44,438 nt of DNA from an archaeon (GTDB lineage: Archaea > Nanobdellota > Nanobdellia > SCGC-AAA011-G17 > PNOQ01), in assembly GCA_018652475.1 (NCBI GenBank), contig JABICB010000019.1, forward strand, positions 1 to 44,438, in the 5' to 3' direction. How positions within the stretch are numbered: the stretch's first letter is position 1; every line of letters starts with the position of its first letter. The notes below the pieces were generated by a model. That model did not search any database. It saw only the letters and a program-made list of their open reading frames with translations, and had not been told where the DNA came from. A program made the translations under genes and the position numbers. Below are positions 2,870 to 8,778 of this stretch, in pieces.

Positions 2870-3708
2870 AATTAAAATTATTACTTTTAATTAGTTTACT
2901 TTTTGTTGGTTCTGTTGGTGCGATGAGTATTGAGTCTGTTGATTCTAATGAATTTGCTCCTGGCGAACAAGGGTTGATTAATATAAGATTTGAGAATGAA
3001 CATTCATTTGATATAATTGATGTTAATGTGCATTTGGATTTTTCTGGAGCTGAATTACCTTTTGCACCAGTTGATATGGGATCTAATGTCTTTATTGATG
3101 AGATAAATGATGGCGATGATGAACTTGTACAATTTAATATTGTGGTATTACCTAATGCGGAATTGAATATATACAGTGTTCCAGTCCACATAACTTATTT
3201 TGGAAATAATGAAACTTATGAAAGAGAAGATATGATTAGTATAATTGTTCACACTGATCCAATTCTTTCTGTTATTGTTTCTGAACCGGATTTTATTGTT
3301 GGAAATATTGCAGATGTAAATATCAAAATTATCAATGAAGGTTTAGCTGATGTTAAGTTTTTGAAAGTTAAATTAGGTAATAGTGATTTCTTTGATGTAT
3401 TATCTTCTTCTGAAATTTATGTTGGTGAACTTGATTCTGATGATTCTGATAAAGTTGAATTTAGTATCAGATTAAACAATGTTATTTCTGATAGTATTAG
3501 TATCCCAGTAAGTTTAGAATATTATGATTCTTCAAATAATCTTTACACAATGGGTGATAATTTAAGAATTAATGTTTATTCTGAAAAGGAAGCTAAAGAT
3601 TTAGGTTTGATTGTTAATGAAAAAAGTACTTGGTGGATATATCTGATTGTAGGATTTGTTATTTTTGCGATCTATAAACACAGGAAGAAAAAGAAACGAA
3701 AAAGATGA
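2866..3708 (+). CDS. membrane-anchored exporter-associated protein with beta-sandwich repeats
   Basis: The 280-residue protein has an N-terminal signal peptide (KLKLLLLISLLFVGSVGAM), two extracytoplasmic domains resembling the CARDB/S-layer-like beta-sandwiches of COG1361 proteins (about 25-130 and 135-235), a transmembrane helix near 255-272 and a very basic cytoplasmic tail (KHRKKKKRKR). It lies between the ATPase and permease genes, overlapping each by four bases, so it is very likely a subunit or partner of this exporter. Bacterial MacB works with the periplasmic adaptor MacA. This protein occupies the same genetic place but does not look like MacA, so an analogous role is inference. Confidence 0.75.
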   Translation: MKLKLLLLISLLFVGSVGAMSIESVDSNEFAPGEQGLINIRFENEHSFDIIDVNVHLDFSGAELPFAPVDMGSNVFIDEINDGDDELVQFNIVVLPNAELNIYSVPVHITYFGNNETYEREDMISIIVHTDPILSVIVSEPDFIVGNIADVNIKIINEGLADVKFLKVKLGNSDFFDVLSSSEIYVGELDSDDSDKVEFSIRLNNVISDSISIPVSLEYYDSSNNLYTMGDNLRINVYSEKEAKDLGLIVNEKSTWWIYLIVGFVIFAIYKHRKKKKRKR

Positions 3709-4957: not shown

Positions 4958-6076
4958 ATGAAAGAGAGTGTGTTATTTGTAATTTTTTTAATAATCTGTA
5001 TGCCTGTGGGTTTTGCTAAAAGTGTTGTTGTTGACAATATTAATGAAACTGAAATAATTATTGAGCCTTCAAGTATTACTCGTTATGTTTATGGCCTGGA
5101 TGGGATTGTTGCATCCATGGTTGATTCTGAAATTAATTATTTTCATTCTGATCGTATTAAGAGTAATCGATTGATAACAGATTATAGTGGTTTTGAAGTT
5201 AGTACTTTCAAATCTCTTCCTTTTGGACAGGAAGTTGAAAATAATGGAATCAGATTCGCCTTTGCAACTGGAAAAGAATTAGACCCTAGTGATTTATATT
5301 ATTTTGGTGCTCGTTATTATGATTCTAATTCGGGGAGATTTACGTCTGTTGATCCAGTAAAAGAAAATCATGCATATTCTTATGTTGATAATAATCCTAT
5401 GAATTTAGTTGATCCCACTGGAGAAAGTTTTTTTGAACCTTCTACAGTTAATTCATTGCTAACTTCATCTACAACTTGTGCAATTGCAGGTAATTGCGGA
5501 CCCCAAGTAATGATTCCTGATTTTGCAGATGCAGCGGCAGTGGGATGTCTTTTTCTTGCAGGAATTGCAGCATGGGGCATCTCGCAAGGATTGGGCCCTC
5601 AATTCCCAGATATTAATTTGCCAGATTTAGGGGATACAGGGGAGCAAGATAATACTGTCTCTTTATCTAAATCCATGAGTATTCCTAAATCAAAAACTAT
5701 TTCTCTGACTGAACCAATTACTCTTGAGCGCCAGAGGGTAATAACATATGGAAGAGTTATGACTAAACAAGAAGCTAAACTATTTGATTCTACAGGTGTC
5801 CTTGGTGGCGAAGGTGCAAGGGGTGAAGAAGGTCAGCTAGTTCCAGTTTTTCTTGCACCTCCTGGCATTATAAAAAGAACCCGGGGTTTATCTAATAATA
5901 AATTACAAGAATTTTATAGGGATATTGGTGGGAAAAATACTCAGCCAGGAAAACTTCAAGTACGTTTTTTTACAACATCATTTGTGCCAACTACTGATCC
6001 AATTCGTTCCAGATCTGGGAATATCTTTGAATTAAAATTTCCCCGGGGAACCCAAACAATTTCTGTTGAATATTAA
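4958..6076 (+). CDS. secreted mini-RHS protein with variable toxin-like C-terminus
   Basis: The 372-residue protein has a signal peptide (about 1-20), then a short RHS/YD-type segment (about 40-155). That segment ends in the RHS-associated core: YYFGARYYDSNSGRFTSVDP, then YSYVDNNPMNLVDPTGE. In RHS proteins this core is the boundary after which a variable toxin follows. Here about 215 residues follow: a cysteine-containing linker, a small hydrophobic Ala/Gly-rich segment, a Ser/Thr-rich spacer and a compact 110-residue domain beginning near VITYGRVMTKQEAK. The many YD repeats that form a complete RHS cage are missing. GC content rises in the 3' part (5590-6060), suggesting acquired DNA. The toxin fold is not recognised; an ADP-ribosyltransferase-like fold is only a guess. 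Convergent small genes downstream are candidate immunity genes. Confidence 0.8.
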   Translation: MKESVLFVIFLIICMPVGFAKSVVVDNINETEIIIEPSSITRYVYGLDGIVASMVDSEINYFHSDRIKSNRLITDYSGFEVSTFKSLPFGQEVENNGIRFAFATGKELDPSDLYYFGARYYDSNSGRFTSVDPVKENHAYSYVDNNPMNLVDPTGESFFEPSTVNSLLTSSTTCAIAGNCGPQVMIPDFADAAAVGCLFLAGIAAWGISQGLGPQFPDINLPDLGDTGEQDNTVSLSKSMSIPKSKTISLTEPITLERQRVITYGRVMTKQEAKLFDSTGVLGGEGARGEEGQLVPVFLAPPGIIKRTRGLSNNKLQEFYRDIGGKNTQPGKLQVRFFTTSFVPTTDPIRSRSGNIFELKFPRGTQTISVEY

Positions 6077-6157: not shown

Positions 6158-6559
6158 TTAAAATTCTTTTTTTATGATATCTTTATTTTTTTTTATTAAA
6201 CTTAACCCAGTAAGGGTTGCCTTTTTCAAATATGGATTTGAAATATATTTTTTTAAATATTCATAATTTTCAATGCTTTTATCTATTTCAGCAATACTAA
6301 TTATGGCATAAGGAGTTAAGGATTCATTTTTTTCTATAATACGTTTTAAACAGGGTTTTGCATTTTCTAGTTTTAATTTTCCAGTTAATAATATCCCAAA
6401 TAAATTTTCATCATAGTTTTCATTTGATAAATAATTTTGTACTATATTGTTTTTCTCTAATTTATTAATATAAATTATTTCTTCAACTAGTTTTACTTTG
6501 GAAAATATATCTGAATTACTATCAAATATTTTTTTAATTTCTCTCTCTAAATTATTCAT
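6158..6559 (-). CDS. small helical (HEAT-like) protein of unknown function
   Basis: The 133-residue protein is very AT-rich and predicted all-helical. Paired amphipathic helices around ENAKPCLKRIIEKNESLTPYA and ENYEYLKKYISNPYLKKATL resemble HEAT-type repeats. It has no signal peptide or catalytic motif. It is the last gene of a minus-strand operon, its start overlaps the stop of the preceding gene by four bases, and it ends 80 bases from the convergent RHS gene. Immunity to the RHS C-terminus is possible from position alone, but nothing in the sequence proves it. Confidence 0.6.
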   Translation of the reverse strand: MNNLEREIKKIFDSNSDIFSKVKLVEEIIYINKLEKNNIVQNYLSNENYDENLFGILLTGKLKLENAKPCLKRIIEKNESLTPYAIISIAEIDKSIENYEYLKKYISNPYLKKATLTGLSLIKKNKDIIKKEF

Positions 6560-6930
6560 TTATATTCTCCTAATTTAATAAAATATAAATTATAATTTTC
6601 CATAAATCCTATTGCTCTTTTATTATCTGTTCTATGCGTTATTAATTTTATTTTTTTTAAATTTTCTTTTTTTAAATTATTACTTTTTAAAAATTTTTGT
6701 CCAGTATAACTGCCCAAATAGTTCTCTAATTGATTTAAAAAGGAATTATCTTTTTTTCTAATTAAAAACACTCCATTTTGTTCTCCTTTACTATATCCTC
6801 TAAAGCCAAATTTCTCAATTGTTTCAATTGTTTTTTCTAACGATATTATGTCTTCTTTAATTATTTTTTTTGAAATATGCACATTCAAATTTTTTATATA
6901 AGAATTATAATCAGTAATATTTTTCTTCAT
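6556..6930 (-). CDS. unknown small cytoplasmic protein of the RHS-linked operon
   Basis: This 124-residue, lysine- and asparagine-rich protein matches no family I recognise. It has no signal peptide or transmembrane segment. A central part with alternating beta and helix (KFGFRGYSKGEQNGVFLIRK, later KIKLITHRTDNKRAIGFM) suggests a small alpha/beta fold. It is cotranscribed with the genes on either side, overlapping the HEAT-like gene by four bases and starting ten bases after the lipoprotein gene. Small proteins next to polymorphic toxins are often immunity proteins, which is the best positional guess. Confidence 0.55.
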   Translation of the reverse strand: MKKNITDYNSYIKNLNVHISKKIIKEDIISLEKTIETIEKFGFRGYSKGEQNGVFLIRKKDNSFLNQLENYLGSYTGQKFLKSNNLKKENLKKIKLITHRTDNKRAIGFMENYNLYFIKLGEYK

Positions 6931-6939
6931 TTTATCTAA

Positions 6940-7344
6940 TCAGTAAAAATAACTGCTCCTTTTTTTATCTTTTTTTATAGAATATTTATTTAAAATTTTT
7001 CTTTTTAGAAGTCCAGTTTCTTCTTTTGTAATCTTTTTGTCGTTATTAGTATCTGCTACTCTTATTATTTGTTCTAAATATTTTTTTTGTTTATATGGGT
7101 TAGTTACACCAGTTATGAAAGTAGTGGTAATTAGGTTTCCATTCCAAATTTGTTCTTTTTCATATGCTTTCATTGTTCCTGCCTTTATTGCAGCAATTAA
7201 GTACATCTCTGATAAATCTTCAATTTCATATTGTTGATTATGTATTTGAATTGTGTTGCAGGGTCGAGATACAGTTTCAAGATTAGTTGTTGCACATCCC
7301 GTTAAGAATGAACCTATTAATGCGTATTCTAATATTTTTTTCAT
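6940..7344 (-). CDS. lipoprotein with an EF-hand calcium-binding loop
   Basis: The 134-residue protein has an N-terminal lipobox-type signal (hydrophobic stretch ending LTGC, cysteine near residue 17), so it should be lipid-anchored outside the membrane. Near residues 98-109 it carries DTNNDKKITKEE, which matches the 12-residue EF-hand loop with acidic or Asn ligands at positions 1, 3 and 5 and Glu at 12. Such single loops occur in dockerins and in calcium-binding proteins outside eukaryotes. It overlaps the Crp-like gene by four bases, so it is translated with a regulator and a nucleotidyltransferase, an unusual company for a surface lipoprotein. Confidence 0.7.
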   Translation of the reverse strand: MKKILEYALIGSFLTGCATTNLETVSRPCNTIQIHNQQYEIEDLSEMYLIAAIKAGTMKAYEKEQIWNGNLITTTFITGVTNPYKQKKYLEQIIRVADTNNDKKITKEETGLLKRKILNKYSIKKDKKRSSYFY

Positions 7345-7997
7345 TTTTCATGTAACCTTTTTTTAACTTTTATTCTTGAATTTCCATAAGAAATAGAATT
7401 ACTATTTTTAATTGTCCTACTTACACTTTCTCTTGTTGTTCCTATCATTTTTGCTAGTGTTTTTTGATCAAGTTTTTTCATGGTAAAATAATCTTTTTCT
7501 TCTCTTCCAATCTGAGTGATGCAAGTATCAATAACATTATGAAGTTTATCTTCTAATGTTAAGTCATTCATATTTTTTATTAATCTATTTTGATAATTTG
7601 AAGCTAATTCATCTTGTAATCTAATTATATTTTGAGTAACTTTTGGATAATTAAAAATTATGTAATCTCTTTGATTTTTTGAAATTGTTAAAACTTTTGA
7701 ATTATCTTCTAATGAATGCCATTCTGTTTCAAAATTTTTAAATCCTATATCTGAAAACAAAGAGTTTTTTCCAAAAATTAAGGAATATGATATCTTATCT
7801 TTATTATCTATAACACTTTCTAAGTATGAACCATTAAGGACATAATATAAATTAAGTTTGTCTTTTTGAATTATAATTGATTTTTTGTTATTTTTGATAA
7901 TATTTAAATTATTATTTGCATATTTAAGAAATGATTCTTTTTCTGTGTACCTAACATTTTGTAATAAAGGGCATTTATCTTCTATCTTGTTTTTCAT
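7341..7997 (-). CDS. Crp/Fnr-type transcription regulator
   Basis: The protein has a divergent N-terminal cyclic-nucleotide-binding-like beta domain (about 20-115), a dimerisation helix (SNYQNRLIKNMNDLTLEDKL) and a C-terminal winged helix with the Crp-type signature (LDQKTLAKMIGTTRESVSRTIKN). The phosphate-binding cassette of cAMP-binding members is not recognisable, so its ligand is unknown. Crp-type proteins are uncommon in Archaea, which suggests transfer. I prefer the ATG at 7997 over one seven codons upstream because it directly follows the nucleotidyltransferase stop and has a GGTGGGGAG ribosome-binding site before it. A palindrome at the operon head (8840-8853) is its natural candidate operator. 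Confidence 0.8.
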   Translation of the reverse strand: MKNKIEDKCPLLQNVRYTEKESFLKYANNNLNIIKNNKKSIIIQKDKLNLYYVLNGSYLESVIDNKDKISYSLIFGKNSLFSDIGFKNFETEWHSLEDNSKVLTISKNQRDYIIFNYPKVTQNIIRLQDELASNYQNRLIKNMNDLTLEDKLHNVIDTCITQIGREEKDYFTMKKLDQKTLAKMIGTTRESVSRTIKNSNSISYGNSRIKVKKRLHEK

Positions 7998-7998
7998 A

Positions 7999-8778
7999 TT
8001 ACTCCCCACCAAAAACATTTGGATTTATTCTATATAAATTTTCAACAATTTGATTTTTCATAGGAGTAAGATTTCTATAATCGCTCAAAGATTCTAAGAA
8101 ATATTTTTTGTCTAATTTTTTATATATAGTTAATGCGTTTATATCAAATATGTCTGCATATAATCTAATTTTACTTATTGCTTTTTGTAAATCTGGCCCA
8201 TTCATATTAAATTGATTCAACATTAAGTCTTCTTTTTGACTTTCGATTGAGTTTTGTAAATGATGCAATTCTTTATTTTTTGGTTTTTTTAATCCATGTT
8301 TTAAAAAACTGTTTGATCTTAATACTTTATGAAGGATTATATCTTCAGTAGGAATTAATCTAATATGTCCGCCATTATATTTTACTTTTTGAGCATTAGC
8401 GTTTTCCCTTCCTGTTACTTTTCTTAACCATTCATATGAAGAAGTGCTTTTTCTCGGATATTGTAAAATTACCTTTTCATCCCCATTATCTAGGTTTATA
8501 TCGTATGTATATCTCTGTTTTTTCTTGGATGTTTTGTATCCTTTGTCTAATAATTCTTCTAATCCTCCAGCGATTACTTTTTGAAATTCAGTTAATGAAT
8601 ATTTTGGAATGCCATTCATGTCTATATCTGAACTAGGCCTATGTAAATTTTCTGGTAAGAAAAATTGTGTACTCATTCCACCTGCAAAGTACATTTTGTC
8701 ATTATAGTGATTAGAAATTGCACTATATACATCTTTAATGATGTTATCTTCTATAGTGTGTAAATATTTGCTTTTCAT
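7999..8778 (-). CDS. AbiEii/AbiGii-type nucleotidyltransferase
   Basis: The 259-residue protein shows the DUF1814 (AbiEii) nucleotidyltransferase pattern: FAGGMSTQFFL (GG then S) followed by HRPSSDIDM (R.S.DID), near residues 32-55. This holds the two metal-binding aspartates of the polymerase-beta fold. A later LIPTEDIILHKVL matches the downstream helix where a lysine completes the active site. AbiEii toxins transfer nucleotides and normally pair with an AbiEi winged-helix antitoxin. Here no AbiEi is seen, and the next gene instead encodes a Crp-type winged-helix regulator. It is the first gene of the five-gene minus-strand operon, with a TATA box at 8814-8824. Confidence 0.78.
   Translation of the reverse strand: MKSKYLHTIEDNIIKDVYSAISNHYNDKMYFAGGMSTQFFLPENLHRPSSDIDMNGIPKYSLTEFQKVIAGGLEELLDKGYKTSKKKQRYTYDINLDNGDEKVILQYPRKSTSSYEWLRKVTGRENANAQKVKYNGGHIRLIPTEDIILHKVLRSNSFLKHGLKKPKNKELHHLQNSIESQKEDLMLNQFNMNGPDLQKAISKIRLYADIFDINALTIYKKLDKKYFLESLSDYRNLTPMKNQIVENLYRINPNVFGGE

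Follow-up and report, generated by a model that had tools for sequence, protein, structure and literature searches.

The 44,438-nucleotide archaeal contig JABICB010000019.1 (the window, meaning the whole stretch of DNA that was analysed) carries a gene for a short RHS protein of 372 residues, referred to here as mini-RHS. The protein probably belongs to a polymorphic toxin system that is multi-copy and Sec-exported, and in which a plug-only RHS adaptor carries an exchangeable effector and convergent genes provide immunity. As far as sequence can tell, the hallmarks of polymorphic toxin systems are present wherever they could be tested, but the cage that defines the canonical Rhs toxins is absent.

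The archaeal host is evident from the small subunit rRNA in the window (E=3.7e-261) and from an archaeal signal recognition particle RNA. The source genome (G000) is 0.53 Mb in size at 92% completeness, which is consistent with a member of the DPANN.

The RHS plug

The N-terminus, MKESVLFVIFLIICMPVGFA, looks by eye like a Sec signal peptide. The RHS sequence behind it amounts to about 115 residues and is matched by Rhs_assc_core (TIGR03696) at residues 88-155 (E=8.1e-18; 64.7 bits with a curated cut-off of 32.5), leaving 217 residues (156-372) downstream of the core. This is the layout that a first-pass annotation, made from the sequence alone, had described. A profile of eight mini-RHS cores matched 27 distinct PDB sequences of Rhs, TcC and teneurin-like chains (best E=4e-20), mostly at the final 100-125 residues of the shell: 580-689 of 690 in YenC2, 1026-1151 of 1152 in 8h8a and 1751-1878 of 1879 in 8qja. 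With 7pq5 (Rhs1/Tre23) the match stops at residue 1341, so that D152 of the window protein falls on D1338. In Photorhabdus laumondii Rhs1 the C-terminal plug comprises residues 1263-1357 and is an aspartyl protease domain; the D1338N mutation abolished C-terminal cleavage (PMC8636562).

The RHS part of the window protein stops at a glycine (G155) just past this cleavage-site aspartate. All 41 cores, drawn from seven genomes, have D132, D152, R119 and G155; one of these cores, L051, probably belongs to the same gene as L052, which a contig end has divided. Because the profile maps to shell ends only and the aspartate is conserved, the protein appears to consist of a leader, a plug/protease and a C-terminus, without the barrel. 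These alignments identify the RHS part with the aspartyl-protease plug at the C-terminal end of RHS cages, and we infer that the protein is exported via its leader and cleaves itself.

There is no long YD-repeat shell in the 372-residue protein, and TEN_YD-shell was unmatched in all nine genomes of the family; that search also found no long shell able to act in trans, though G005 and G006 have long RHS-like proteins. The one in G005, a 1,967-residue protein with an RHS-like start, lies 620-6523 bases past the end of the RHS gene L061_13534_14718 and is a possible full-length counterpart. A whole-protein scan of bacterial and archaeal genome contigs returned only two distant bacterial RHS cores, and the viral contigs searched held no relatives. 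Searches of Pfam, NCBIfam, PADLOC, PHROG and PDB gave no meaningful match to residues 156-372.

Exchange of the C-termini

The mini-RHS gene was found in seven of the nine family genomes, at about 4 to 10 copies per genome, and in 16 of 145 genomes of wider relatives. Within genomes, DNA identity between copies is 66-78% in the last 30 nucleotides of the core and 31-36% in the next 30. The drop occurs at the codon right after the core, which in the window is after G155. The C-termini are also higher in G+C than their cores (Wilcoxon p=2e-5; 39% vs 32% in the window). In the source genome, five core ends are followed by five different C-termini; four of these copies lie at contig ends, as expected of near-identical repeats in an assembly.

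The seven genomes yielded 41 C-termini after the core, nearly all of 186-278 residues. Grouping by BLASTP and phmmer gave 38 groups: 36 C-termini stand alone, two form a pair, and three of the fn3/Por_Secre_tail type group together. Domain searches recognised a PT-TG pre-toxin domain (E=1.3e-6), Por_Secre_tail (5e-7) and FlgD_ig (3.6e-8) among the copies; DUF4846 (1.6e-6) and the transglutaminase-like DUF553 (0.0014) were matched under their curated cut-offs, there is also weak similarity to DUF1402, and the remaining C-termini showed no recognised family in these searches. The DUF553-like C-terminus (L013:14199-14999, at the end of contig C4 of G000) has Cys, His and Asp at catalytic-like positions. 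The fn3-like copies with Por_Secre_tail/FlgD-like ends come from three genera (L010:1-867 at the start of contig C16 of G000, L073:3490-4518 and L066:3443-4471) and have tails of the type IX secretion sorting type, here found in archaea.

An orthologous locus in G003, G006, G007 and G008 gives a closer view of the exchange. The flanking genes are kept and the N-termini (44-58% identity) and cores (59-70%) are related (z 9-33), whereas of the C-termini only those of G003 and G007 are related (z 14) and all other pairs are not (z -0.6 to 1.9). G003 and G007 are also the only ones to share a convergent gene that abuts or overlaps the 3' end of the RHS gene. Since only this pair has both the same C-terminus and the same neighbour, the two appear to move together as one cassette. 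G000, G001, G002 and G004 have both flanking genes but no RHS gene there. In the core tree the copies cluster by genome (9 changes vs 27.6 in shuffles), and even at the orthologous locus three of the four cores group with the other copies of their own genome. This is the pattern that gene conversion gives. In G006 (L067) the convergent neighbour of a mini-RHS gene, 6-602 bases past the RHS end at 3486 (minus strand), encodes an L,D-transpeptidase that bears a leader peptide (YkuD, E=1.4e-10).

Thus in the relatives the core is conserved and the C-termini are swapped, very clearly so, which is the behaviour that the first-pass annotation had expected of a polymorphic toxin; a C-terminus kept unchanged across species, which it had named as counter-evidence, was not found in the relatives compared.

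Complete copies begin with a start codon and a leader peptide of their own. One subfamily (L058, L065, L072, L080) has N-terminal stalks of about 100 residues made of N-I/L/F-T repeats, that is, dense N-glycosylation sequons. In two copies (L008:1-145 on contig C5 of G000, L050:2465-3600 on contig C14 of G001) a stop codon lies inside the core and the frame is open beyond it; these are decaying copies or assembly errors. Near RHS material on contig C5 of G000 there are also two near-copies of one phosphatase-like gene within 3 kb (L008:2219-2509 and 5004-5318).

A C-terminal domain and its partner gene

The last 118 or so residues of the window protein form a domain, here called T, with relatives elsewhere in the order and class of archaea. 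Profiles of T and of its partner, a gene on the opposite strand, were built with the window left out and searched against 5,803 reading frames (Table 1). Outside the window, T lacks RHS and either makes up a protein of 108-118 residues or closes a longer one that is mostly helical and in part coiled-coil; among the T loci found, its fusion to an exported adaptor occurs in the window only. Neither T nor the partner matched a known toxin or antitoxin family. The first-pass annotation had likewise recognised no toxin family in the last 110 residues, yet this region appears as a recognisable, undescribed domain family with a candidate cognate gene.

In the T alignment R12 is invariant, F84 and E104 are nearly so, and the domain ends in E-x-K-F-P-x-G-T. 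The pattern R ... F-T-T ... E-x-K-F-P-x-G-T recalls that of ADP-ribosyltransferases. T may be an enzyme of this type, although this is only a lead: neither an ADP-ribosyltransferase nor any other family was matched in Pfam or PDB. A match of G016 to residues 22-75 of the C-terminus was dropped, as it sits in an unrelated secreted protein.

Homology to the partner gene itself first defined the partner family, and T then turned out to lie convergent to members of this family in G037, G151, G156 and G342. A search of the phylum with the partner profile added three further genomes, two with T tail-to-tail at a 4-base overlap and the third with a relic of T. The association holds at 10 loci. Counting T at E below 1e-10 in 371 genomes, T is present in 10, the partner in 10 and both in 9 (P~3e-16), in addition to the relic in G382. 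All that is left of T in G011 and G382 is its last 46 and 27 residues, respectively, beside an intact partner, as would be expected of a harmful T and a protective partner. The two genes are a convergent pair and not the co-directional two-gene operon of type II toxin-antitoxin systems. Taken together, the pair is a candidate new toxin-immunity family. The viral contigs and plasmids searched held no relatives of the partner, and the viral contigs, plasmids and phages searched held none of T. T also stands without the partner beside housekeeping genes, as a 108-residue protein at L105:2734-3060 and a 111-residue protein at L106:3112-3447.

The genes next to the RHS gene lie on the minus strand in a tight, mostly overlapping cluster (6158-8778), which may be a small conflict island.

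Table 1. Features of the mini-RHS locus in the window
Feature	Position	Strand	Basis
mini-RHS gene, 372 residues	4958..6076	+	open reading frame exact, with every motif quoted in the first-pass annotation
Putative Sec signal peptide, residues 1-20	4958..5017	+	read by eye; relatives also begin with hydrophobic leaders
RHS C-terminal plug, residues ~38-155	5069..5422	+	ends where solved RHS/TcC shells have their processed end
Codon of D132, first conserved Asp	5351..5353	+	core alignment
Codon of D152, aligned to D1338 of P. laumondii Rhs1	5411..5413	+	core alignment and PDB match
Linker starting the exchanged C-terminus; hydrophobic segment ~191-212 (by eye)	5423..5719	+	DNA boundary after G155
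T domain (residues 255-372), member of an undescribed family and putative toxin	5720..6073	+	profile without window, E=3.5e-15
Helical 133-residue gene between T and the immunity candidate	6158..6559	-	same place as the HEAT-like gene of G037 and of further loci
Partner, candidate cognate immunity/antitoxin gene, 124 residues	6556..6930	-	profile without window, E=2.8e-16
Small lipoprotein with EF-hand-like stretch, in the minus-strand cluster	6940..7344	-	domain searches and sequence
Crp/Fnr-like regulator, in the minus-strand cluster	7341..8018	-	domain search
AbiEii-like nucleotidyltransferase, in the minus-strand cluster	7999..8778	-	domain search

Proposed mechanism

In the proposed system the leader and plug would be a common export and release adaptor, and the C-terminus of about 200 residues the exchangeable effector. 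Sec would export the window protein, which would stay on the surface or be released. The plug would cut after D152-P-T-G155, freeing an effector of about 24 kDa at or outside the cell surface. The last ~118 residues of this effector would be the toxic part, poisoning neighbours or the host, with the hydrophobic stretch at about 191-212 as a candidate for entry into the target. The product of 6556-6930 would shield the producer's kin. C-termini would be swapped by homologous recombination between the near-identical plug sequences.

A broader proposal is more tentative, and we regard it as possible without favouring it. Archaea with tiny genomes may have cut the RHS toxin down to its self-cleaving plug, as a universal release adaptor for recombining effectors of ~200 residues aimed at host or neighbour cells, with protection by tail-to-tail immunity genes from families not yet described, the pair of T and its partner among them. 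The first-pass annotation had also proposed a stripped-down exported toxin used against neighbours or the host cell of a symbiont. The RHS remnant turned out to be the C-terminal plug/protease of the cages, and the partner gene supports a toxin; toxicity, delivery into another cell and the target are so far unsupported.

Alternative explanations

Several observations weigh against a toxin system. The T proteins outside the window show no leader by eye, so T could work inside the cell, as a toxin-antitoxin or regulatory module, and it occurs without the partner in G343 and G161. A profile built without the window does not find the gene at 6158-6559, which lies between T and the partner. Several mini-RHS copies adjoin housekeeping genes and have no candidate immunity gene, and the three copies with fn3-like and Por_Secre_tail/FlgD-like C-termini have an adhesive or sorting-like look that is not obviously toxic. 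Predicted structures were of low confidence, both for T alone (predicted local distance difference test score, pLDDT, 35.4) and for the mini-RHS domain with two bacterial relatives (pLDDT 41.6).

On one alternative, T and its partner would be a toxin-antitoxin or regulatory module of the usual intracellular kind in this archaeal class, with the RHS fusion in the window incidental and perhaps a non-functional capture. The short or coiled-coil, RHS-free T proteins at the other loci and the tail-to-tail arrangement of the pair fit this explanation. The fusion in the window is, however, a full open reading frame with a leader and an intact plug, the partner is kept nearby, and every complete copy of the family bears some C-terminus; we consider this explanation rather unlikely. 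It is also unlikely, and to a somewhat greater degree, that the family serves host attachment or surface remodelling, with variable adhesion or hydrolase domains by which a small symbiont binds or loosens the host envelope and does not poison competitors. The adhesive-looking copies speak for such a role, as do the weak similarities of other C-termini to DUF553, DUF4846 and DUF1402, the L,D-transpeptidase as one neighbour and the sequon-rich stalks, which suggest glycosylated surface proteins. It leaves unexplained the T/partner pair, the decay of T beside an intact partner, the joint exchange of neighbour and C-terminus and the PT-TG match. An adhesion repertoire or a captured intracellular module may nevertheless coexist with toxins in one system.

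The near-identity of plugs within genomes, and the long RHS-like proteins of some relatives (L064, L068, L061), could mean that most copies are orphan C-terminal cassettes, a silent reservoir recombining into one active long RHS protein. The separate start codons and leaders of complete copies, and the lack of any TEN_YD-shell match in the nine family genomes, make such a store improbable. An assembly artefact, or pseudogene pieces of large RHS genes, would account for the copies in G000 that stop at contig ends and for the in-core stops on C5 and C14. The data already contradict it, and we give it hardly any credence: the window copy lies inside a 44-kb contig with intact flanks, and dozens of complete copies of 340-450 residues occur in independent genomes.

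The exported toxin system thus remains the preferred reading, and it suggests that very small archaea operate an exchangeable toxin arsenal. That these relatives, as small symbiotic archaea with very few genes, spend about four to ten of them on one exchangeable exported family points to strong and changing selection from hosts or competitors. If the proposal is true, the cage-free plug is a natural minimal RHS release module, and the role of the cage becomes directly testable. Convergent immunity genes would also escape scans that assume a co-directional downstream gene.

Comparison with known systems

T and its partner share with toxin-antitoxin modules a small gene pair, a patchy distribution and the decay of one member. 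Those modules are co-directional operons, whereas T and the partner are tail-to-tail, with an overlap of about 4 bases at several loci. The orphan rhs-CT modules of enterobacteria repeat a core end and a C-terminus as cassettes that recombine through the core. The mini-RHS genes show the same cassette repetition, and their complete copies add a signal peptide and a start codon of their own.

The literature searched (full text, RHS and DPANN) had no plug-only RHS repertoire for tiny archaeal genomes, with the main 2019 archaeal survey outside this comparison. Polymorphic toxin systems are described as generally absent from most archaea, as are most immunity superfamilies; Methanosarcina acetivorans is reported as an exception, with classical stalked RHS toxins (PMC3482391). 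With the archaeal polymorphic toxin systems (PMC3482391) mini-RHS has in common an exported protein and exchangeable C-terminal domains. With the bacterial Rhs toxins (P. laumondii Rhs1, PMC8636562; Tse5; RhsA) it shares an Rhs core with a conserved plug and the aspartate at the catalytic position, a variable C-terminus after DPxG, adjacent genes of immunity type (candidates in mini-RHS) and a deviating C-terminal G+C. The bacterial toxins have a YD-repeat cage of ~1,000 residues, a type VI secretion system adaptor and co-directional immunity genes, whereas mini-RHS has about 115 RHS residues, a Sec-type leader and convergent immunity-type genes, and it is archaeal and present in many copies in a genome under 1 Mb.
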